Below are positions 74-29,523 of a stretch of DNA of 40,872 nt, piece after piece. The stretch covers positions 1 through 40,872 of the forward strand of contig JAJYJJ010000019.1 in assembly GCA_021789595.1 (NCBI GenBank), given 5' to 3'. The translations under genes and the position numbers were made by a program. The notes beneath the pieces are model-generated. The model was given only the letters and a program-made list of their open reading frames with translations. It was not told the DNA's origin and did not search any database. Source of the stretch: Nitrospirota bacterium. Lineage in GTDB: Bacteria; Nitrospirota; Thermodesulfovibrionia; UBA6902; JAJYJJ01. Every line of letters starts with the position of its first letter. The stretch's first letter is position 1.

Positions 74-496
74 ATGCGATACTTCAAAAAAATTGTGGAC
101 ATAATCATCAAGATGATGATCCCCCTTGTAATCCTTGCCCTTATGATAGGTATTGCGAGGATATTCCTTGATCTTAAGGCGGTCTTTAAGAGCCCGACAA
201 TATCTGCTGGTTTTGACATTATGGTTACGAATATACTGTCAATGTTTATTGTTATAGAGCTTCTAAGAAGCATAATCGAATATTTCGAGATCCATAGGCT
301 CAGGATAACATTCATCGTGGATGCTGCCATGGTCTTTATTTTAAGGGAGGTCATGGTCGGTATTTATCAGCATAAAATGGGCGCTATTGAGATAGCCTCC
401 CTTGCTGTGCTTCTTCTCGTAATTGGTGGCACAAGGGCATTAGCTATCGTATATTCGCCAGACAAAACAAAGGAGGAGGTAGTAAAACATGAATAG
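74..496 (+). CDS. psiE: PsiE-family phosphate-starvation-inducible membrane protein
   Basis: This 140-aa protein matches the PsiE family in size (E. coli PsiE is about 136 aa) and in its four predicted membrane segments, near residues 10-30, 48-68, 77-97 and 102-125. Charged residues including the FEIHRLR stretch lie between segments 2 and 3. PsiE is induced by phosphate starvation in E. coli; its biochemical role is unknown. The Pho-type promoter just upstream agrees with the family name. The ATG lies 5 bases after the TATAAT, about where transcription should start, and no Shine-Dalgarno sequence precedes it, so the message may be leaderless. The stop overlaps the start of the next small gene by 8 bases. 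The family call is from overall pattern, not from a search. Confidence 0.75.
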   Translation: MRYFKKIVDIIIKMMIPLVILALMIGIARIFLDLKAVFKSPTISAGFDIMVTNILSMFIVIELLRSIIEYFEIHRLRITFIVDAAMVFILREVMVGIYQHKMGAIEIASLAVLLLVIGGTRALAIVYSPDKTKEEVVKHE

Positions 497-588: not shown

Positions 589-643
589 TTTAATATTGAT
601 GAAATATCCCTGTAACATTCACGTTCTAATCTATCTTTATAAA
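589..643 (+). promoter_or_regulatory. Pho-box array and -10 of the 663 gene
   Basis: Units TTTAATA (589), TGAAATA (600) and TGTAACA (611), with a degenerate fourth at 622, keep 11-bp phasing. A -10 candidate TATAAA is at 638-643, 9 bp after the fourth unit. The TGTAACA 7-mer also occurs in the arrays before the 3152 gene and pstS. Confidence 0.5.
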
Positions 644-662: not shown

Positions 663-830
663 ATGAAGGCGATGATTGAAGCAAAAGAAGGTCTCTACCT
701 TATCAGCATTTACGGAAAGGAGGGGGGTCTATATGATGTGTATGTGGTAGATGAAGTTGAATTAAGGGCACAGAAGCAAGATGGGGGCTTGAGATCCATT
801 CTGGAGGAACATGGAGCTTTACAAATGTAA
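663..830 (+). CDS. unknown 55-aa protein
   Basis: A 55-residue acidic protein starts at an ATG 8 bases after a strong AAGGAGG site (648-654), downstream of a Pho-type promoter. It has no cysteine, no signal peptide and no membrane span. A Tyr-rich segment (LYLISIYGKEGGLYDVYVV) suggests a small beta structure. Its last 20 bases overlap the start of the Cys-rich protein gene at 811, so the two are probably translated together. I recognise no family. Confidence 0.6.
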   Translation: MKAMIEAKEGLYLISIYGKEGGLYDVYVVDEVELRAQKQDGGLRSILEEHGALQM

Positions 831-1038
831 GAGGAGCAAAGAGATGACGGGATGTTCTTTTCTCGAAGAGGATATCGGATGCGTCCACTGTAAGGCTGCT
901 GGGGTATGTGTGGAATATATAGACGGTGTAGACATAGATGTATGTGCGAGTTCGAGATATAACAATTGCTATATATTTAATGCCTCACAGCAAGACAACA
1001 TGCAAAAAGTGATCATAAGGCTTAGGACATCTGATTAA
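811..1038 (+). CDS. small Cys-rich protein A (six-member local family)
   Basis: This 75-aa protein has seven cysteines (6, 15, 24, 27, 33, 45, 53). The last pair, C45-x7-C53 with Tyr at -3 (RYNNCYIF), is the signature shared with five more small proteins at 2810, 3152, 3404, 3611 and 3799. Cysteine spacing like this usually means zinc, an Fe-S cluster or disulfides; the sequence does not decide which. There is no signal peptide, so a cytoplasmic metal site is more likely. Its start (site ctggagga) overlaps the 663 gene and it sits 25 bases before the CBS-domain kinase, suggesting one transcription unit. Function unknown. Confidence 0.65.
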   Translation: MELYKCKRSKEMTGCSFLEEDIGCVHCKAAGVCVEYIDGVDIDVCASSRYNNCYIFNASQQDNMQKVIIRLRTSD

Positions 1039-1063
1039 TGGTTAGTTTAAAGGGGGATATAAG

Positions 1064-2266
1064 ATGGAAATGTTGCAGACCGAATCACCCTCGGTTGGAA
1101 GACTGATTACATCCAACGAATGTGTACCGCCATACACCCCTGTTCGTCAAGTGGCTGATAGGTTTTTTAACTCAACCCAGATAGATGCCTTAGCACTGGT
1201 TGAAGGTAGAGAGCCTGTAGGTCTTGTCACAAGGCCCAAACTCCTTTTTACATTGTTTAGAAGATATGGGTTTGAGTTGTATGGGAGAAAACAGATTATC
1301 ACAATAGCTGATGCAGAACCGCTTACAATACAGGAGGACGAACGACTTGATGTTGCCATAGATAAGGCACTGGACAGGCCTGCTGAGGATATCTATGACG
1401 AGATTGTAGTTGTGGATGGTAGAGGCCAATACAGAGGCCTTCTTTCTGTAAAACAGATGGTGATACAACAGAGCAATGCCCTTGCAAACAGCATTATTCA
1501 GAAAGAGATGGCAAGTGAGAGGGCAAAGGAACTTGAGAAGATAAGCCTGATAAAATCCCGGTTTATTGCAAATGTCACCCATGAACTCAGGTCGCCTGTG
1601 AACGCCATAATCGGACTGGCTGAGCTCATGAAGATTTCATGTGAAAAGGGATATGTGGATCAGTTAAAGGACCGTCTGTCTTTACTGATGTCCAGTGCTA
1701 CCAATCTCAGAGCTGTTATAACTAACATCCTCGACCTATCAAAGATCGAGGCAGGTAAGATGGATATCATTTCTGAACATTTTGATGTGGTGTCAATACT
1801 TCGCGAGGTGGCAGAAACCACACGCATACTTATCGGAAGCAAACCTGTTGATGTTGAGGTAGTTGCTCATGATGGGCCAGTATTTATTGTCTCAGACCCT
1901 ATCAAGGTTCGACAGATATTAACCAACCTTGCAAGCAATGCTGCGAAATTCACGGACAGGGGAAAGATTGTTCTGACACTCGGCAAGGAAGAGGATAGGC
2001 TTAAGATATTAGTCAGCGACACAGGGATTGGAATAAAAGAAGATGACCTTAATAAGCTTTTCGTTGCATTCAGTCAATTAGAGGACACAAAGACCAAAAG
2101 ACATGAAGGGACAGGGCTTGGACTGACGATCACTAAGAACCTGTTAAACTTGTTAGATGGGAGTATCTCTGTTTCAAGCAAATTTGGTGAAGGGACGACC
2201 TTTGAGGTCTATTTACCGTTAAACCAATTTAAAAATGAAGCGATTGCTTCGTTTCACTCGCAATGA
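1064..2266 (+). CDS. CBS-domain sensor histidine kinase
   Basis: The 400-aa protein has two CBS-like repeats (about 12-75 and 80-138; note VGLVTRPKLL and RGLLSVKQM), a short helical linker, a HisKA domain with phospho-acceptor His173 in VTHELRSP, and an HATPase domain with N box near 288-292, DTGIGI at 319-324 and GTGLGL at 349-354. No membrane segment is seen, so it should sense a soluble signal; CBS pairs in other proteins bind adenine nucleotides. The receiver protein at 2376 is its likely partner. The site agggggatat precedes the ATG. The last ten residues (NEAIASFHSQ) are encoded by an interspersed repeat and lie beyond the normal end of the ATPase domain. Pho-box promoter upstream and Cys-rich neighbours suggest a phosphate-stress role, an inference. 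Confidence 0.9.
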   Translation: MEMLQTESPSVGRLITSNECVPPYTPVRQVADRFFNSTQIDALALVEGREPVGLVTRPKLLFTLFRRYGFELYGRKQIITIADAEPLTIQEDERLDVAIDKALDRPAEDIYDEIVVVDGRGQYRGLLSVKQMVIQQSNALANSIIQKEMASERAKELEKISLIKSRFIANVTHELRSPVNAIIGLAELMKISCEKGYVDQLKDRLSLLMSSATNLRAVITNILDLSKIEAGKMDIISEHFDVVSILREVAETTRILIGSKPVDVEVVAHDGPVFIVSDPIKVRQILTNLASNAAKFTDRGKIVLTLGKEEDRLKILVSDTGIGIKEDDLNKLFVAFSQLEDTKTKRHEGTGLGLTITKNLLNLLDGSISVSSKFGEGTTFEVYLPLNQFKNEAIASFHSQ

Positions 2267-2356
2267 CAAATCCCCCCATTCCCCCTTTACTAAGGGGGGT
2301 TAAAGGGGGATTGTTAAATGTCATTGCGAGCACCCAAAAGGGTGCGTGGCAATCTC
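2240..2356 (+). repeat. composite nested inverted repeat between kinase and regulator genes
   Basis: Three parts are nested. Outer arms CACTCGCAATGACA (about 2255-2268) and TGTCATTGCGAG (2319-2330) are inverted copies. Between them lies a C-run/G-run palindrome (2269-2312, aatcccccc to gggggatt). The right half carries its own small hairpin (CACCC-aaaa-GGGTG, about 2331-2345). The left half encodes the last residues of the kinase. The C/G palindrome family recurs at 14324, 14489 and 16211. It looks like a REP/MITE-like non-autonomous element. Confidence 0.8.
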
Positions 2357-2375
2357 AAGAAACAGGAGGAATTTT

Positions 2376-2774
2376 ATGGAAAGGATTAAAAAGAAGATCC
2401 TAGTAATTGACGACGATGAAAGGCATCTCATTGCCACAAAGGAACTACTGGGGGATGAAGGATACGAGGTGATTATCCACCATAACGCATTTGGTTCTAC
2501 CAATGTTATTAGAGAACTTCAACCTGACCTCGTCCTGCTCGATGTCAATATGCCTGCCCTTTCCGGCGATAGACTTTCATCACTTCTTCTTTCTAATGAA
2601 AAGACTAAGGATATTCCTATTGTTTTCTATTCGTCTAATGATGAAGACAGCCTGAGGGAGGCCGTAGTTAAACACGGGGTCAGTGGATACATCTCTAAGG
2701 GCAATATCTTTGAGTTGAAGGAAAAGGTCGCCTATTATCTGAGCCCTCAAAGTAATAAATCTCCCCATGTCTGA
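2376..2774 (+). CDS. receiver-only response regulator
   Basis: The 132-aa protein is one REC domain: acidic Asp12-Asp14, phospho-acceptor Asp56 in LLDVNMP, conserved Ser86 in FYSS, and Lys108 in YISKG. No DNA-binding or enzyme domain follows, so it should act by protein contact or as a phosphate relay, as CheY and Spo0F do. Start ATG 2376 is chosen because aggaggaatttt precedes it; an in-frame upstream extension would be read from repeat DNA. It follows the CBS-domain kinase and is its likely partner. It cannot itself be the PhoB that binds the local boxes. Confidence 0.9.
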   Translation: MERIKKKILVIDDDERHLIATKELLGDEGYEVIIHHNAFGSTNVIRELQPDLVLLDVNMPALSGDRLSSLLLSNEKTKDIPIVFYSSNDEDSLREAVVKHGVSGYISKGNIFELKEKVAYYLSPQSNKSPHV

Positions 2775-2809
2775 AGAGAAGCTAAAGTCTTAAGAAGGAG
2801 GTGATAGGT

Positions 2810-2986
2810 ATGTGTCCAAAATTTAGAGACGGCCTATGTGAGATTGCAGGAATCGAGCCGGAGTATGTTGAATGCGTGGATGAGAGCTGCTGTTACAAGA
2901 ATGCGCGGGAATACGAACGATGCAGGCTCTATGTAGCTGAATATCCCATAAATAATTATAAAGGCACCTTAAGTGCTGCGGCGTGA
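2810..2986 (+). CDS. small Cys-rich protein B (six-member local family)
   Basis: This 58-aa protein has cysteines 2, 10, 22, 27, 28 and 38 and ends the core with YERCRLYV, matching the Y-x-x-C-x-[LIF]-[YFV] closing motif of its neighbours. ATG 2810 is preferred over an upstream GTG (2801) because GTG lies inside the aaggaggtgat ribosome site. It begins Met-Cys-Pro, so the first cysteine of the family sits at the very N-terminus. It follows the receiver gene by 35 bases and probably shares its transcript. Function unknown. Confidence 0.65.
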   Translation: MCPKFRDGLCEIAGIEPEYVECVDESCCYKNAREYERCRLYVAEYPINNYKGTLSAAA

Positions 2987-3011
2987 ATCCTAAGACCTTC
3001 CCGCAGTCCCT

Positions 3012-3055
3012 CCCCTGGGATCCCTGGAAATTCCCGGGGTCCCCCCTCTTATTTT
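3012..3055 (+). terminator. possible terminator after Cys-rich protein B
   Basis: CCCCTGGGA (3012-3020) can pair with TTCCCGGGG (3031-3039) with one mismatch, followed by C-rich then T-rich sequence (cttatttt). It lies just before the next Pho-type promoter, where the first transcript would be expected to stop. The stem is imperfect and the T-run interrupted. Confidence 0.35.
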
Positions 3056-3109
3056 GTCACAAAGATTTCATCTTGCCTTAATAATCCTGTAACAGAAAAA
3101 TTTTATGCT
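3055..3109 (+). promoter_or_regulatory. Pho-box array and -10 of the second Cys-rich gene group
   Basis: Units TGTCACA (3055), TTTCATC (3066), CTTAATA (3077) and TGTAACA (3088) repeat every 11 bp. TATGCT at 3104-3109 lies 9 bp after the last unit, the same geometry as at pstS. The first and last units are the closest to consensus. Confidence 0.55.
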
Positions 3110-3151
3110 TATTAGGTAAGTCTAAAAAGTCCTGAATACAGGAGGGAAGTG

Positions 3152-3370
3152 ATGTATATGAAAAGCAATGTAATATGTCCCAATTTGCAGGGAAGCTCTG
3201 ATGGGGCAACATGCAGCGTTGTCAGTAAATTTATCATGGCTATGGAGGATGCCGACATAAGGCTGTGCATGAACAGACGCTATGAAGTATGTTCCCTATA
3301 TGTTTTATCACTAAGAAGGATAGCACTCAATTCTATCGGGTCAAATGTTGCACTGGAGACTGGACAGTGA
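3152..3370 (+). CDS. small Cys-rich protein C (six-member local family)
   Basis: From ATG 3152 the protein has 72 aa with exactly four cysteines, 9, 21, 39 and 47. C9 starts a CPN-L motif and C39-x7-C47 contains RRYEVCSLY. This four-Cys spacing (x11, x17, x7) is the clearest form of the family core. Ribosome site ggaggg lies 5 bases upstream; GTG 3149 and ATG 3158 are alternative starts. First gene of the 3152-3966 group, directly behind a Pho-type promoter. No signal peptide or membrane span. Function unknown. Confidence 0.65.
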   Translation: MYMKSNVICPNLQGSSDGATCSVVSKFIMAMEDADIRLCMNRRYEVCSLYVLSLRRIALNSIGSNVALETGQ

Positions 3371-3403
3371 ATTTAACAAACCATAATCGGGAAGGGGACA
3401 AAG

Positions 3404-3607
3404 ATGAGCAGCATTGTTGATATTGCATTGTCAATGCAACTCACAAACGAATATGAGTCGTGGTGTCCATACTGTAACAGATCAGATGTATGCAGTGCCT
3501 CTATTGGTTTTCTGATGCCAACGGCAAGGGAAAGAGCAACCTTTTGTGACACCGAAAACTATGATGATTGTCCGATATTCTTGGCAAAGGTCTTAAGAAG
3601 GAGGTAA
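3404..3607 (+). CDS. small Cys-rich protein D (six-member local family)
   Basis: A 67-aa protein with cysteines 21, 24, 30, 48 and 56. It has CPYC at 21-24 and the closing C48-x7-C56 in NYDDCPIFL, followed by a basic tail (KVLRRR). The C30-x17-C48 spacing equals that in proteins C and F. The CPYC pair resembles a redox or metal knuckle but there is no thioredoxin-fold context. A weak site (gaagggg) precedes ATG 3404; the stop lies 3 bases before the next start. Confidence 0.65.
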   Translation: MSSIVDIALSMQLTNEYESWCPYCNRSDVCSASIGFLMPTARERATFCDTENYDDCPIFLAKVLRRR

Positions 3608-3610
3608 AAG

Positions 3611-3802
3611 ATGGCATGCCTTGATTATTTGGTTTCAGATTCGTGGTGCTTGAAGGGAATTCCTGTTACCCAACGATTCAGCAAGTTCTTCTGCGAGGCA
3701 AGACCTGAAAGGTGTCCATTAGTTATGAGGGAGAAGGAGATATCGAAAGATATAAGTTTAAGGAGATCAAAACCCTTTAGAAACATATGGAGGAGGCCAT
3801 GA
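3611..3802 (+). CDS. small Cys-rich protein E (six-member local family)
   Basis: A 63-aa protein with cysteines 3, 13, 28 and 35 in the family order; the closing pair C28-x6-C35 has PERCPLV. Its C-terminal half is strongly basic (LRRSKPFRNIWRRP) and longer than in protein F. A strong aaggaggt site lies just upstream and its TGA overlaps the ATG of the next gene (ATGA), so E and F are coupled. Function unknown. Confidence 0.6.
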   Translation: MACLDYLVSDSWCLKGIPVTQRFSKFFCEARPERCPLVMREKEISKDISLRRSKPFRNIWRRP

Positions 3803-3966
3803 GATGCCCCTATCTTAAAGAATGGGTTGTGTCTGTCTGTAAGGCTGTAAGTAATAACTATGTCCCGAGTAATTTCGAACTTCAGGAATACTGCAAGACA
3901 AAGCATCATAAAAAATGCCCCTTCTTTTTAAAGAACACCGCCGTGGAAAAAGAAGTGGAGGCTTGA
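3799..3966 (+). CDS. small Cys-rich protein F (six-member local family)
   Basis: This 55-aa protein, starting in an ATGA overlap behind a ggaggagg site, has exactly four cysteines (3, 14, 32, 40): MRCPYL, VCKA, YCKTKHHKKCPFFL. Spacing x10, x17, x7 nearly equals protein C, so these two define the family core. It is the last gene before the pstS promoter. Histidines 36 and 37 between C3 and C4 of the core could add to a metal site. I know similar small Y-C-x(7)-C-P proteins only as uncharacterised; function unknown. Confidence 0.65.
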   Translation: MRCPYLKEWVVSVCKAVSNNYVPSNFELQEYCKTKHHKKCPFFLKNTAVEKEVEA

Positions 3967-4010
3967 TCTCAGATGAGTGCGTATTTGATGAAGAGGGGGG
4001 GTGAGATAAA

Positions 4011-4065
4011 TGTAACAGAAATTTAACATATCTGTAACATTCTTGTAATATTCCGACATTAGACT
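4011..4065 (+). promoter_or_regulatory. Pho-box array and -10 of pstS
   Basis: Four near-identical units TGTAACA (4011), TTTAACA (4022), TGTAACA (4033) and TGTAATA (4044) repeat every 11 bp, the strongest array in the window. TAGACT at 4060-4065 is 9 bp after the last unit. Placement before pstS makes PhoB control very likely. Confidence 0.85.
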
Positions 4066-4092: not shown

Positions 4093-5088
4093 ATGAAAAG
4101 AGCCTTAAAATTAGCACTGGTAATCGCCATAGTTCTGTCTTTCACGACAGCCTATGCCGCAGAAATCCTGAATGGAGCAGGGGCAACATTCCCGTATCCA
4201 TTATACTCAAAATGGTTCTATAACTATGAGAAACAGACTGGTGTAAAGATAAACTATCAGTCCATTGGCAGTGGCGGTGGTATTCAGCAGATAGAGGCAG
4301 GCACTGTTGATTTTGGAGCAAGTGATGCACCACTACCAAAGGAAGAACTCGATAAACATGGCCTGTTCCAATTTCCAACAGTGGCAGGTTCAGAGGCAAT
4401 AGCCTATAATCTGCCAGGAATTCCAACAGGCCTAAAATTAACACCTGAGGTTATTGCAGATATGTATCTGGGTAAGATTACAAAATGGAATGACCAGAGG
4501 ATTAAGGAACTCAATCCAAACCTGAATTTGCCGGACATGCCTGTAATAGTTGTACACCGTTCAGACGGAAGCGGCACAACAAATATATTCACATGGTTTC
4601 TGGGTGATGTAAGCTCGGAATGGAAAACAAAGGTTGGCTCAGGCACATCTGTTAAATGGCCCGTTGGCATTGGAGGTAAAGGGAACGAAGGCGTAGCCGG
4701 CCTCGTAAAACAGACCGCAGGAGCTGTAGGTTATGTAGAACTTGCATATGTCATCGAGACAAAGATGACCCATGCCTTAGTCCGCAACAGGGATGGGCAT
4801 TATCTCTACCCCTCCATAGAAACTACAGTTGCAGCCGCATCTAATGCAAATGTACCACCCGATTTTTATGTAAAGTTCACATATTCCAAAGGTAAGAACT
4901 CCTATCCTATAGCAGGGTTTACATATTACATCGTAAGAAAAAATATGGATAGGAATAAGTTATCCACCTTCATAAAGTTTGTGGAATGGGCATATAAACA
5001 TGGAAATGCGGATGCAAAGGCCCTTGACTATGTCCCAATGCCTGATAGCTTAAAACATAAGGCATTGACAGCATTAAAAAAGTTATAA
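4093..5088 (+). CDS. pstS: phosphate ABC transporter substrate-binding protein PstS
   Basis: The 331-aa protein has a Sec signal peptide (about 1-22, cleaved after TAYA) and a PBP fold that binds phosphate in the periplasm. Family motifs include GAGATFPYPLY near the mature N-terminus, SGGGI and DFGASDAPL in the first lobe, and HRSDGSGTTNIFTWFL, whose Ser-Gly-Thr residues hold phosphate. Length is normal for PstS. Ribosome site aaggaggaaac precedes ATG 4093. It is first in pstSCAB-phoU behind a four-unit Pho-box array, and a hairpin after it likely makes it more abundant than the membrane parts. Confidence 0.97.
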   Translation: MKRALKLALVIAIVLSFTTAYAAEILNGAGATFPYPLYSKWFYNYEKQTGVKINYQSIGSGGGIQQIEAGTVDFGASDAPLPKEELDKHGLFQFPTVAGSEAIAYNLPGIPTGLKLTPEVIADMYLGKITKWNDQRIKELNPNLNLPDMPVIVVHRSDGSGTTNIFTWFLGDVSSEWKTKVGSGTSVKWPVGIGGKGNEGVAGLVKQTAGAVGYVELAYVIETKMTHALVRNRDGHYLYPSIETTVAAASNANVPPDFYVKFTYSKGKNSYPIAGFTYYIVRKNMDRNKLSTFIKFVEWAYKHGNADAKALDYVPMPDSLKHKALTALKKL

Positions 5089-5098
5089 TATTCTAAAA

Positions 5099-5131
5099 TT
5101 TTTGGGGTGGCCTGTATGTGCACCCCAAAAA
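5099..5131 (+). terminator. hairpin between pstS and pstC
   Basis: TTTTTGGGGTG (5099-5109) and CACCCCAAAAA (5121-5131) form a perfect 11-bp stem with an 11-base loop. No T-run beyond the stem follows, so a partial terminator or a 3' RNA stabiliser that raises PstS over PstCAB is more likely than a full stop. Confidence 0.6.
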
Positions 5132-5195
5132 TCATACCCTGACGATTTAGAAGGCTATTAAATATAGCAGAAGCATCCAGACAGAAGGGGATTGT

Positions 5196-6128
5196 TTGCA
5201 AAAGCATAATATTAAACTAAACAAAGACCATGCATTCAGGGGGCTTACAGCCTTACTATCCCTCATCCTTCTCTTACTAAGCATCGGTATTCTATTTAAG
5301 TTAATTATTTCATCAAACTTATCATTTAATGCCTTTGGTTTTAAGTTTCTACTCTCAAAGGATTGGGACCCTGTCCAGAAACTATTTGGTGCATTGCCAT
5401 TCATGTGGGGAACATTTTTTTCAGCAACACTGGCACTTATCTTTGCCCTCCCTATAAGCATCGGCATCGCCATATTTCTTTCCGAGCTTGCACCTATTTG
5501 GATGAGGCAGCCTGTCTCTTTTATTATCGAGCTTCTTGCGGCCATACCGAGTGTTGTTTACGGCCTATGGGGACTTTTTGTGCTCGTCCCTGTGATGCAG
5601 CACTGGGTAGAGCCAGTTCTTGCTAAATACCTTGGTTTTCTTCCCCTCTTTAAGGGTTATCCACTTGGAGTTGGCATGCTTACAGGTGGGATTATTATAG
5701 CAATAATGATAATACCTACAATCTCATCCATCTCAAGGGAAATACTGGCAGCGGTTCCTGAAAACCAGAAGGAGGCTGCCCTTGCCATCGGCATGACAAG
5801 ATGGGAGACCATATGGAAGGTCATGCTGCCTTATGGAAGAAGCGGTATAGTTGGTGCAATCCTCCTCGGCTATGGCCGTGCACTGGGGGAGACGATGGCT
5901 GTCACTATGGTCATCGGTAATACGCCTTCCTTATCCCTTTCTCTGTTTGCCCCTGCTTACACTATCGCAAGCGTGATTGCCAATGAGTTTACAGAAGCTA
6001 CATATAAACTCTACATATCCTCTCTGATCGAGCTTAGTCTTATCCTCTTTGTTATAACCTTCACCCTCAATGCCCTTGCAAGGTTTTTATTATGGAGGAT
6101 GAAGAGATTTGAAGAGGTCAAGGTGTAG
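5196..6128 (+). CDS. pstC: phosphate ABC transporter permease PstC
   Basis: A 310-aa inner-membrane permease with about six membrane segments, the first near residues 15-38. The permease loop that contacts PstB is visible (EAALAIGMTRWETIWKVMLP), followed by GRALGETMAV. It forms the phosphate channel with PstA. The start is TTG 5196, chosen for the agaagggg site 5 bases upstream and for giving normal length. The gene follows pstS by 107 bases containing a hairpin. Confidence 0.95.
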   Translation: MQKHNIKLNKDHAFRGLTALLSLILLLLSIGILFKLIISSNLSFNAFGFKFLLSKDWDPVQKLFGALPFMWGTFFSATLALIFALPISIGIAIFLSELAPIWMRQPVSFIIELLAAIPSVVYGLWGLFVLVPVMQHWVEPVLAKYLGFLPLFKGYPLGVGMLTGGIIIAIMIIPTISSISREILAAVPENQKEAALAIGMTRWETIWKVMLPYGRSGIVGAILLGYGRALGETMAVTMVIGNTPSLSLSLFAPAYTIASVIANEFTEATYKLYISSLIELSLILFVITFTLNALARFLLWRMKRFEEVKV

Positions 6129-6161
6129 GATGAATAAACAGAGCACAGAGGACAGAACCCT

Positions 6162-6998
6162 ATGAAAAACCTAAAATACACAAGGCGTAAATTAACCCAG
6201 AAGGTAATGTTTTTCCTCTCTGTAGTGTCTGCGTTTATCGGTATTGCGATGCTCTTCCTTATACTCGGCTATATTATATATAAAGGAGGTCATGGGATTA
6301 ATCTTGATTTCTTTACAAAACTGCCAACCCCTGTTGGTGTTCCTGGTGGAGGAATGGTGAATGCCCTGATAGGGAGTACTTATCTCATTGGCCTTGCAAG
6401 CCTTCTTTCCATTCCTGTTGGAATCCTCATAGGTGTTTATCTCTCAGAGTTTGGCAGGGGAGCCTTCGCCTCTGCCGTGAGATTCGTATCAGAAACCCTT
6501 ACAGGTGTGCCATCTATTGTTATGGGGATATTTGCCTACTCTATAGTTGTAATACCAATGGGCAGGTTTTCAGCACTTGCAGGGGCATTTGCATTATCTC
6601 TCCTCATGCTGCCTATAATTGTAAAGTCTACAGAGGAATTATTAAAAATGGTCCCTAATGATTTGAGGGAGGCATCCCTTGCCCTGGGGATACCACGGTG
6701 GAAGACTATTTTAAAGGTAGTCTTAAGCACGGCTAAATCAGGAGTTATAACAGGCATAATGCTTGCTATTGCAAGGGTTGGGGGTGAGGCTGCACCACTT
6801 CTTTTCACTGCCTTTGGTAATTCTTTTATGAACTGGAGACCTGATCAGCCAATAGCAAGCCTTCCCGTTCAGATCTATGTCTATGCCAGCTCACCCTATG
6901 AGGACTGGCACCAGAAGGCATGGGCAGCGGCCCTTGTCCTCATGGGAATTGTCCTTATTACAAATATAATAGCGAGGGTCTATGCAAGAAAAAAGTAA
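6162..6998 (+). CDS. pstA: phosphate ABC transporter permease PstA
   Basis: The 278-aa permease has about six membrane segments. Its PstB-contact loop is [20 protein letters not shown], followed by [17 protein letters not shown], typical of PstA. It pairs with PstC in the membrane. An agagga site precedes ATG 6162. The end overlaps pstB by 17 bases, so the two are translationally coupled. Confidence 0.95.
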
Positions 6999-7767
6999 AG
7001 GGTTAGGAGATAAGACAAAATTTATTATCGATGGACTTAATGCGTGGTTTGGCAAAAACCAGGCACTAAAGAATATCAACATGTGCATCACACAGAACGA
7101 GATTACTGCTATCATAGGGCCATCTGGCTGTGGGAAGTCAACATTTGTCAGATGTCTCAATAGGCTCCACGAAGAGATAGTCGGAGCAAGATGCGAAGGG
7201 AAGATCATATTTGATGGGAAAAACATCTATGACCCTGATGTAGACCCTGTGCTTATCAGAAGAAGGATAGGCATGGTCTTTCAGAAGCCAAATCCATTTC
7301 CGGCTATGACCGTCTATGATAATGTGGTGGCAGGCCTTATACTCGACGGCAAGAAGAGAAGGGCAGAGCTTGATGAGGCGGTAGAGAGGTTCTTAAAACT
7401 CGCTGCCCTGTGGGATGAGGTAAAGGACAAACTCTATCAATCAGGGGCGAGCCTTTCAGGAGGGCAGCAGCAGAGGCTCTGTATTGCAAGGGCATTGGCA
7501 GTTGAGCCTGAGGTCATCCTCTTTGATGAGCCAACCTCTGCCCTTGACCCCATATCAACATCAAAGATAGAGGAGTTGGTGCAGGAACTTAAAAAGGATT
7601 ATACTATTGTTATAGTGACCCATAACATGCAGCAGGCTGCAAGGGTCTCGGAATATACAGGATTTTTCCTCCTGGGGGAGCTTATAGAGTTTGACAACAC
7701 GGATAAGATATTCACTAATCCGTCAAACAAATTGACAGAAGACTATATAACAGGGAGGTTCGGCTGA
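6982..7767 (+). CDS. pstB: phosphate ABC transporter ATPase PstB
   Basis: The 261-aa ATPase powers phosphate uptake on the inner face of PstCA. Walker A is GPSGCGKST (46-54), the Q-loop FQKPNPFP follows, the signature LSGGQQQR is at 158-165 and Walker B VILFDEP at 178-184. The FQKPNPFP sequence and the length are specific to PstB. It overlaps pstA upstream and shares bases with the phoU start (TGATGA). Confidence 0.97.
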
Positions 7768-8429
7768 TGACAATCTTTGATGACGAACTCAGAGATCTTA
7801 AAGAGAAGATACTAAGGATGGGGCTTCTCGTGGAGGCGGCTATAAGGGATTCTATAAAGTCCCTTGTGGATAGAGACAGCGAGCTTGCCAGAGAGGTTAT
7901 AAGGAGAGACCACCAGATAAATGCCGTTGATGTTGAGATAGATGAGGAATGTATAAGGCTTATTGCACTGAGACAGCCGAAGGCAGGGGATTTGAGATTT
8001 ATAACCACTGCCATGAAGATTACAACAGACCTTGAAAGAATGGGCGATCTGGCAGAAGATGTATGTGAAAGGGCAATAGAGCTTAACGAGGAGCCGCCAC
8101 TTAAGCCTTACATTGACATACCGAGGATGGCAGAGATCGCACAGGGTATGCTGATAGATGTGCTGGACGCCTTTGTGAGGAAAGAAACATCCATTGCATA
8201 CGATATCATTAAGAGGGATGATGCGGTTGATAATCTCACCGTACAGATATTCAATGAACTTATGTTCTTCATGATTCAGGACCCAAGGGCTGTTTCAAGG
8301 GCGGTAAAGATAACATACATTGCAAAGTATCTGGAGAGGATTGCAGACCACGCAACCAATATCGCAGAGATGGTCATCTATAATGTTGAAGGCAGAATAA
8401 TAAGGCATATGGCTCCGCCATCAGAATAA
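7767..8429 (+). CDS. phoU: phosphate signalling protein PhoU
   Basis: A 220-aa, all-helical protein of two PhoU repeats with the metal-binding motifs ERMGDLAEDVCERA and ERIADHATNIAEM. PhoU links PstB activity to silencing of the phosphate sensor kinase and limits phosphate uptake. ATG 7767 overlaps the pstB stop; ribosome site gggaggt lies in pstB. No phoR or phoB is in the window, so the kinase it acts on must be elsewhere, or could be the local CBS kinase (speculative). Confidence 0.95.
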   Translation: MTIFDDELRDLKEKILRMGLLVEAAIRDSIKSLVDRDSELAREVIRRDHQINAVDVEIDEECIRLIALRQPKAGDLRFITTAMKITTDLERMGDLAEDVCERAIELNEEPPLKPYIDIPRMAEIAQGMLIDVLDAFVRKETSIAYDIIKRDDAVDNLTVQIFNELMFFMIQDPRAVSRAVKITYIAKYLERIADHATNIAEMVIYNVEGRIIRHMAPPSE

Positions 8430-21520: not shown

Positions 21521-22828
21521 ATGAAAAAACTGCGTTCAGGTTATACAACAGGGGCATGTGCAGCAGCGGCTGCAAAGGCAGCAGCAATGCTTTTACTCCA
21601 GAACACAGAATACAGCCCCACCACCCATCCCTCCCCCTCAAGGGGGGAGGGCAAGGGAGGGGGTGAGAGTCTGGATTCTGGTCTCTGGACTCTGGACGCT
21701 GAAGTTGATATCCCATTTCCTGACGGCAGTAGACATACATTCAAAATTCATAACTCTAAACTCATAACTCGCAACTCGCAACTCGTTGCACGGGCATCGG
21801 TAATTAAAGATGCGGGGGACGACCCTGATGTAACCAATGGGGCAGAGATAGTAGCAGAAGCCAGATTTCAGAAGACAGAATACAGCCCCACCACCCACCC
21901 CTCCCCCTCAAGGGGGGAGGGCAAGGGAGGGGGTGAGAGTCTGGGCTCTGGGCTCTGGACTCTGGACGCTGTCCTTATAAATGGCGGCAAGGGCATTGGC
22001 ATTGTCACAAAGCCAGGCCTTCCTGTGCCTGTGGGTGAGCCAGCAATAAATCCTGTGCCGAGAAGGATGATAAAGGAGGCTGTGATGGAAGCACTTTCGG
22101 AAAGTCCTGAAGCGCTGAAGTGCAGAAGTGCAGAAGTCTTCAACTTCCGAACTTCCGAACTTCCGAGCTGCCGAGCTATTGAAGTAACCATCTCTGTTCC
22201 TGATGGTGAAAGCCTTGCAAAAAAAACCATGAATCCGAGGCTTGGGATAATTGGCGGCATCTCCATACTCGGCACAACAGGCATTGTTAAACCGCTGTCT
22301 TCTGAGGCATGGACTGCAACTATTACAGCATCAATGGATGTTGCAAAGGCAGTGGGGCATAACGAGATAGTCCTCTCTACAGGAAGGGTATCTGAGAATG
22401 CACATATAAAAAAATATCATCTCCGTGAGGAATCTTATGTGATGATGGGCGACTATCTCGAATTCTCCCTTCTTGAGGCTAAAAGGCACCGATTCAAAAA
22501 GATCCACCTATGTGCACAGTGGGCAAAGATGCTCAAGATTGCAATGGCAATACCTCAAACCCATGTAAGACATGGAGCAATTGATATAAAAAAGGCCATA
22601 GAGTTCTTAAGGGATCTGGGTCTTGGCCCATGGCTCTTGGCTCGTGAATTTAATACCGCACGTGAGGTCTTTGATCTTATTAGCTCAACACTCAAAACTC
22701 AACACCCAACATTTTTTTTAAAGGTCTGCACAGCAGCGAAAACATATGCTGAACGCATTACAGAAGGTATCCCTGTAAGCACCCATCTTGTGTCATATGA
22801 AGGGACAATACTCTCAAGCAGTGAATAA
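21521..22828 (+). CDS. cbiD: cobalt-precorrin-5B (C1)-methyltransferase CbiD with repeat-coded insertions
   Basis: CbiD methylates C1 in the oxygen-independent corrin path. Recognisable parts are LRSGYTTGACAAAAAKAA at the start, GGKGIGIVTKPGLPVPVGEPAINPVPRRMI, NPRLGIIGGISILGTTGIVKP, STGRVSE and THVRHGAIDI. The usual length is about 360-380 aa; here it is 435. The excess matches two 32-residue inserts (TEYSPTTHPSPSRGEGKGGG...WTLDA) read from near-identical 96-bp repeats. Three further tracts (NSKLITRNSQLVARA, RSAEVFNFRTSELPS, STLKTQHPTF) also read from simple repeats. The frame stays open throughout, so the gene looks functional. Last gene of the riboswitch 2 unit. Confidence 0.93.
   Translation: MKKLRSGYTTGACAAAAAKAAAMLLLQNTEYSPTTHPSPSRGEGKGGGESLDSGLWTLDAEVDIPFPDGSRHTFKIHNSKLITRNSQLVARASVIKDAGDDPDVTNGAEIVAEARFQKTEYSPTTHPSPSRGEGKGGGESLGSGLWTLDAVLINGGKGIGIVTKPGLPVPVGEPAINPVPRRMIKEAVMEALSESPEALKCRSAEVFNFRTSELPSCRAIEVTISVPDGESLAKKTMNPRLGIIGGISILGTTGIVKPLSSEAWTATITASMDVAKAVGHNEIVLSTGRVSENAHIKKYHLREESYVMMGDYLEFSLLEAKRHRFKKIHLCAQWAKMLKIAMAIPQTHVRHGAIDIKKAIEFLRDLGLGPWLLAREFNTAREVFDLISSTLKTQHPTFFLKVCTAAKTYAERITEGIPVSTHLVSYEGTILSSSE
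21605..21700 (+). repeat. 96-bp in-frame repeat in cbiD, copy 1
   Basis: It joins a palindrome (cctccccctc-aag-gggggagg core) to CTGGACTCTGGA-type tandem units, 32 codons long. It differs from copy 2 at only a few bases. Confidence 0.9.
21743..21790 (+). repeat. tandem TAACTC/AACTCGC tract in cbiD
   Basis: Imperfect units (taactctaaactcataactcg, gcaactcgcaactcgt) follow one another in frame and encode SKLITRNSQLVA. Confidence 0.65.
21875..21970 (+). repeat. 96-bp in-frame repeat in cbiD, copy 2
   Basis: Same length and frame as copy 1, exactly 270 bp downstream. Only a few substitutions are seen, mainly in the CTGG units. Confidence 0.9.
22116..22177 (+). repeat. tandem GTGCAGAA and ACTTCCGA tract in cbiD
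   Basis: Units of agtgcaga followed by aacttccgaacttccg lie in frame (KCRSAEVFNFRTSELPSCRA) between EALSESPEA and the conserved EVTISVPDG. Confidence 0.65.
22684..22711 (+). repeat. tandem CTCAACA tract in cbiD
   Basis: Units ctcaacactcaaaactcaac are read in frame as STLKTQHP near the end of CbiD. Confidence 0.5.
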
Positions 22829-29488: not shown

Positions 29489-29523
29489 ATCTTCTCCTTA
29501 AAATGTTATAGAAATATTACAGC

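Follow-up and report, generated by a model that had tools for sequence, protein, structure and literature searches.

The four-cysteine genes and their locus

The stretch analysed here, referred to as the window, is the 40,872-nucleotide contig JAJYJJ010000019.1 (assembly GCA_021789595.1) of a Nitrospirota bacterium. In it, six genes for small cysteine-rich proteins, named below by their first base, enclose a CBS-domain histidine kinase/receiver gene pair and precede a phosphate transport (pst) operon. The six genes are paralogues of a previously unnamed Nitrospirota family built around four fixed cysteines. All six had been proposed in a preliminary description made from the sequence alone, and all were found to be real genes on the + strand, as are the other features of the locus.

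The locus opens with a psiE-like gene (74..496), recognised by Pfam PsiE PF06146 at 1.3e-11. A Pho box of 16.4 bits (599..617), scored with a pstS-trained matrix, lies upstream of a first operon containing a small conserved open reading frame (ORF) of 55 amino acids with unassigned function (orf663, 663..830) and the four-cysteine gene 811 (811..1038; 811 type, 75 amino acids), assigned by hidden Markov model (HMM) search. A gene for a soluble histidine kinase of 400 amino acids with two CBS domains, HisKA and HATPase_c (Pfam; 1064..2266) and one for a receiver-only response regulator (2376..2774; Pfam Response_reg, 3.1e-19) follow. The next four-cysteine gene, 2810, belongs to group D (2810..2986, 58 amino acids; orthologues in L046, L047, L052, L109, L116, L130 and other relative loci). 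Directly before it, the last seven codons of a group-B gene (AKVLRRR-stop, 2781..2804) were identified as a relic by the reading frame and a 27-nt repeat shared with 3584-3610, which implies that the array has been remodelled. Group-B genes lie 5' of group-D genes in at least six other loci.

A second Pho box of 18.3 bits (3076..3094) is located 76 bases 5' of the second four-cysteine operon, which comprises 3152 of group C (3152..3370, with the start at 3152 or 3158; HMM E 4.8e-22; orthologues in L045 and L049-L051), 3404 of group B (3404..3607; basic tail LAKVLRRR; orthologues in many pst loci), 3611 of group E (3611..3802; orthologues in L045, L215 and L219) and 3799 of group A (3799..3966), the most widespread group, present throughout Nitrospirota. 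Overlapping Pho boxes of 21.5-22.6 bits in an 11-base register (4010/4021/4032, spanning 4010..4050) then precede the pstS, pstC, pstA, pstB, phoU operon (4093..8429), which was assigned from its ORFs and from homologous operons beside four-cysteine genes in relatives. This layout suggests two operons behind the boxes at 599 and 3076, plus pstS with its own boxes. The PsiE-like gene, the soluble CBS-domain kinase, the receiver-only protein and the flanking pstS had each been named before, and Pfam and the ORFs confirmed them.

Relatives of orf663 with 43-49% identity follow psiE and precede the CBS kinase in L166 and L198; in L197, one stands directly before the kinase. A Pfam scan of orf663 returned no family; it perhaps represents another unnamed one. 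L198 also carries a frame-broken counterpart of 811 at the matching place.

A family defined by four cysteines

In an alignment of 36 sequences, the four cysteines were the sole invariant columns. Among 183 distinct cores, C2-x17-C3 occurred in 162 and C3-x7-C4 in 170, with a variable C1-C2 distance, so that the usual spacing is C-x(7-13)-C-x17-C-x7-C in proteins of 50-75 amino acids. Group-B proteins end in a conserved basic LAKxLRRR tail. Of the core put forward in the preliminary description, the four cysteines stood, with small corrections: additional cysteines occur in 811 and 2810, and the C2-C3 spacing of 3611 is shorter (x14, x6).

A loose regular expression was insufficient as proof of membership, as other ORFs in the window fitted it too. 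In orthologue pairs, the proportion of nonsynonymous differences (pN, about 0.09-0.28) was well below that of synonymous differences (pS, about 0.34-0.90), from which we conclude that the four-cysteine ORFs are coding. Together with the orthologues and the good ribosome-binding sites preceding all six ORFs, this rules out chance or spurious reading frames. The 3799 protein shares 14-31% identity with its paralogues in the window versus 78% with its orthologue in L045 and 80% with that in L215, and the window paralogues fall into separate groups, each found in other genomes, which bears out the proposal of an old tandem family. Searches of Pfam, NCBIfam, PHROGs and PDB sequences gave no match (window members and eight related proteins in the Pfam and NCBIfam scans, one of the eight having been entered with an incorrect N-terminus but a correct core), ruling out an already described family, and literature searches gave no description of it.

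The HMM of the six proteins had hits in 27 of the 47 genomes examined from the same order, counting that of the window; with the 36-sequence HMM, 120 of 346 phylum genomes had hits, representing 81 of 156 genera. When 84,980 bacterial and archaeal species were scanned with two short degenerate peptide patterns, taken from the group-A alignment only, 64 loci were obtained. Nearly all their titles read Nitrospirae, Nitrospiraceae, Nitrospira or Thermodesulfovibrio; that of BMS3Bbin08 gives no phylum. Given two short patterns from group A alone, the scan is silent on distant members elsewhere. The family, found so far only in Nitrospirota, is apparently phylum-restricted, with group A as the part scanned outside the phylum. 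Desulfobacterota had been suggested as a further place to look, and the scan for this one subgroup gave only Nitrospirota.

Phosphate-starvation context

To describe the neighbourhoods, 92 relative loci were used, which had been fetched by HMM score and not by context. In 40 of them, the four-cysteine gene has a pst gene within 5 kb, and a further 7 have psiE or the CBS kinase nearby. psiE is also close to the kinase or four-cysteine genes in L070, L111, L126, L143, L166, L196 and L198. Across the phylum, the companions in Pho context are pstSCAB-phoU, phoBR, psiE and lipid-remodelling genes; further neighbours include ornithine-lipid acyltransferases (OlsB/OlsA profiles, below curated cut-offs), an HpnI-like glycosyltransferase, a PHP-domain protein, a GH1 enzyme, PhoH and alkaline phosphatase, part of this list being recognised by eye. 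All of these neighbours fit a low-phosphate programme.

The Pho-box matrix was trained solely on pstS upstream regions and applied at a threshold of 12 bits; the boxes at 599 and 3076 were outside its training set. The boxes in the window score 16-23 bits (599, 3076 and 4010/4021/4032), while simple shuffles gave an expectation of none above 12 bits per window. Of 46 pstS genes, 30 have a TGTAAC repeat at 11 bases in their upstream region; shuffles had none. Sites above 12 bits preceded 25 of 68 leading four-cysteine genes in Pho context versus 22 of 408 other genes (Fisher p 1.5e-11); the corresponding counts were 0 of 21 for four-cysteine genes in sigma context and 3 of 17 for those without context. 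Such sites also preceded 37 of 43 pstS genes, a figure that is not independent, since the matrix derives from these promoters. TGTAACA repeats at 11 bases, together with the same companions, are those of the PhoB regulon (pstSCAB-phoU, psiE, phoH, ornithine-lipid genes). The earlier claim of Pho linkage and Pho-type promoters is thereby extended across the phylum, and the PhoB-type boxes make it very probable that the four-cysteine genes of this locus belong to the Pho regulon. Literature searches gave no study of the Nitrospirota phosphate response, nor did they show four-cysteine proteins or a CBS kinase/receiver pair as Pho-regulon members.

The same neighbourhoods bear on a different function, in which the proteins would handle metals: as chaperones or buffers, they would deliver or safeguard them when the phosphate and metal balance of the cell shifts. 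Arsenate reductase, a P-type ATPase cluster and CDF and CorA transporters, recognised by eye, are near several four-cysteine/pst loci. However, the window and many other loci lack such metal genes, each protein has just four conserved, widely spaced cysteines, and members in sigma context or fused to receivers do not fit, so that metal handling is improbable.

Several further neighbours were recognised by eye. A small TusA/YedF-like protein is encoded between a group-B four-cysteine gene and pstS (L068 6774-7076, L056 1107-1352). A conserved cluster of a 1040-amino-acid P-type ATPase and HMA-like small proteins, often adjoining four-cysteine/pst genes, is present in L111-L115, L118, L121, L130, L140, L143, L144 and L162. 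In L049 and L050, a group-C four-cysteine gene with a Pho box stands beside ExbD/TonB-like, porin-like, peptidyl-prolyl isomerase-like and arsenate-reductase-like genes.

Conservation of the CBS kinase/receiver pair

Of 346 phylum genomes, 29 (counting that of the window) have the kinase, the orthologues being 56-82% identical to the window copy, and the receiver is the same-strand neighbour in 27 of these 29 loci. Pfam places the HisKA and HATPase domains and the receiver domain in co-located genes, as expected for a two-component system. When 40 relatives from the order were searched at E<=1e-60, the window's own copy was the only hit; the orthologues belong to other orders of the class and phylum. 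Of the 29 kinase loci, 15 have a four-cysteine gene within about 3 kb on the same strand, and 11 have pstS within about 4 kb. The four-cysteine family is present in 27 of 29 kinase genomes versus 93 of 317 kinase-free genomes (Fisher p 1e-11). This value is not corrected for phylogeny: related genomes do not count as independent observations, and one contig is nearly identical in G308 and G336. The association with the kinase/receiver pair that had been claimed for this one locus is therefore conserved in relatives, and the profile search proposed with it recovered homologues near kinases and pst genes as well as the co-occurrence with the CBS kinase.

Sigma-factor context and receiver fusions

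A second neighbourhood was revealed in which Pho boxes are absent, so that the earlier picture of the family was incomplete. In 28 of the 92 loci, an NtrC-type regulator, STAS, cl10 or sigma gene is nearby. Within the order, group A is flanked on one side by the gene for a PAS/NtrC-type regulator and on the other by those for a STAS protein, cl10 and an RpoD-family sigma factor, and 16 order loci have it among NtrC-type regulator, STAS and RpoD genes. The sigma gene beside group A and F genes matches TIGR02393 above cut-off; the genomes checked have two RpoD-like genes each, one of which adjoins a four-cysteine gene in most. Group F denotes a second cysteine-rich small protein (CPF..P..CYC..YC..CEIY), regularly paired with group A beside the NtrC/RpoD genes (L058-L077, L145-L154).

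In this sigma/NtrC context, L151 (Pfam Response_reg, 1.1e-24) and L213 each encode a fusion of the four-cysteine domain with a receiver; in L153, a similar receiver has its own gene immediately after the four-cysteine gene. These fusions are the only direct physical link of the four-cysteine domain to signalling, and they are the one observation that points to a possible adaptor role. Long apparent fusions in L128, L155, L158 and L165 turned out to be over-extended frames and were not counted, and that in L214 is doubtful.

The sigma neighbourhood recalls the Wbl proteins of Actinobacteria, which bind the principal sigma factor (PMC5741622). Like Wbl, the present proteins are small, have four conserved cysteines and a basic C-terminal part, and occur as many paralogues within one phylum (PMC5741622). 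They might accordingly be sigma/RNA-polymerase cofactors with a small fold held by a four-cysteine iron-sulfur or zinc cluster. This fold would bind the RpoD-type sigma factor and the basic tail would touch DNA, with different paralogues serving phosphate starvation and other stresses. The RpoD-type gene beside groups A and F, the LAKxLRRR tail of group B and the several paralogues per genome in an apparently phylum-restricted family, as in Wbl (PMC5741622), are in line with such a role. However, the cysteine spacing differs: Wbl proteins have C-x2-C-x5-C, with WhiB1 cysteines at positions 9, 37, 40 and 46 (PMC5741622), and a GVWGG motif that is lacking here. The Pfam and NCBIfam scans of window and related members gave no Wbl profile match, nor was there a PDB match; moreover, no sigma gene is near in Pho context, and neighbourhood is not proof of binding. 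We regard Wbl-style cofactors as a rather unlikely alternative.

The putative metal site

No export signal was noticed on inspection by eye, and the four-cysteine proteins were taken to be cytoplasmic. Four fixed cysteines in small, presumably cytoplasmic proteins make a metal or iron-sulfur site likely. A model of 3799 gives a hint, and only a hint, of a hairpin-plus-helices layout.

Instead of structural metal sites, the cysteines could serve redox sensing or disulphide formation, or the CP motifs haem binding. A proline follows C1 in 156 of 183 cores and C4 in 137, and CxxC is rare, which would suit such functions. A CP motif is, however, also usual at the last ligand of iron-sulfur sites, and the alignment has no invariant histidine or other haem ligand; we therefore consider redox or haem proteins improbable.

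Interpretation

Our overall reading, to which we assign a probability of about 0.5, is that the four-cysteine proteins are small and cytoplasmic, serve two-component signalling as regulatory partners and are deployed by PhoB in phosphate starvation. PhoB-type boxes would drive the four-cysteine genes together with the phosphate-starvation regulon. In response to an adenine-nucleotide signal, the CBS kinase would phosphorylate the receiver-only protein, which, as it has no output domain, would act through the four-cysteine proteins as adaptors or output modules. A sister set would be used near a sigma factor; transcription is suggested as the target by the paralogues beside the NtrC-type regulator, STAS protein and RpoD-type sigma factor. 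A role as signalling or regulatory partners is somewhat favoured, and binding to receiver or sigma factor, like the direction of action, is inferred.

Several findings weigh against this reading. In one clade (L202-L205, L210), kinase and receiver stand beside pst and no four-cysteine gene was detected, which implies that four-cysteine genes, kinase/receiver pair and pst are linked yet separable, and that four-cysteine genes and pair do not strictly need each other. Conversely, 17 of the 92 four-cysteine loci have no pst, kinase or sigma gene nearby, and the receiver fusions occur in two genomes only, both of one genus group. CxxC is present in 18 of 183 cores, so that the knuckles of common zinc ribbons, treble clefs and rubredoxin-like folds are mostly absent. 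The AlphaFold models of 3799 and 3404 are of low confidence (mean predicted local distance difference test, pLDDT, 68.9 and 61.8), and Foldseek searches with them gave no PDB fold match at E<=0.001.

A broader idea is that the family is a phylum-specific Wbl equivalent: a large four-cysteine (iron-sulfur or metal) cofactor family coupling receivers and RpoD-type sigma factors to redox or metal state, with one tandem array wired to phosphate starvation via the energy-reading CBS-domain kinase. We consider this doubtful. Another parallel is the fission yeast Ecl family, whose members have fewer than 100 amino acids and cysteine-based predicted zinc binding, and of which ecl3 is induced by phosphate starvation and adjoins phosphate genes (PMC10038150). 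Unlike the present proteins, Ecl is eukaryotic, and Pfam/PDB profile searches gave no such match, Ecl sequences themselves not being compared directly. Wbl and Ecl would thus be analogues in size and style only, not relatives.

Other features of the window

A strong Pho-box-like site of 18.4 bits lies at 29504-29522 on the - strand, just upstream of rpsM, between an rpmJ-like gene and rpsM in the ribosomal operon; it may be coincidental or may connect ribosome synthesis with phosphate. Palindromic CCCCCTTTA..AAGGGGG repeats occur at 2281, 14336, 14505 and 16225, one between the kinase and receiver genes and the others within coding frames. A 103-nt direct repeat (21599-21701 and 21869-21971, 95% identical) lies within the large ORF 21521-22828. 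A plasmid search was negative.

Significance

Nitrospirota include nitrifiers and sulfate reducers that are difficult to cultivate. This analysis names a protein family absent from the libraries searched, provides a Pho-box matrix for the phylum and defines a conserved module of psiE, small ORF, CBS kinase, receiver, four-cysteine array and pst. The position of the family inside the phosphate-starvation gene set, beside signalling proteins, suggests an unrecognised regulatory layer. Should receivers or sigma factors prove to be their targets, the proteins would form a second phylum-specific family of small cysteine-based regulators beside Wbl.

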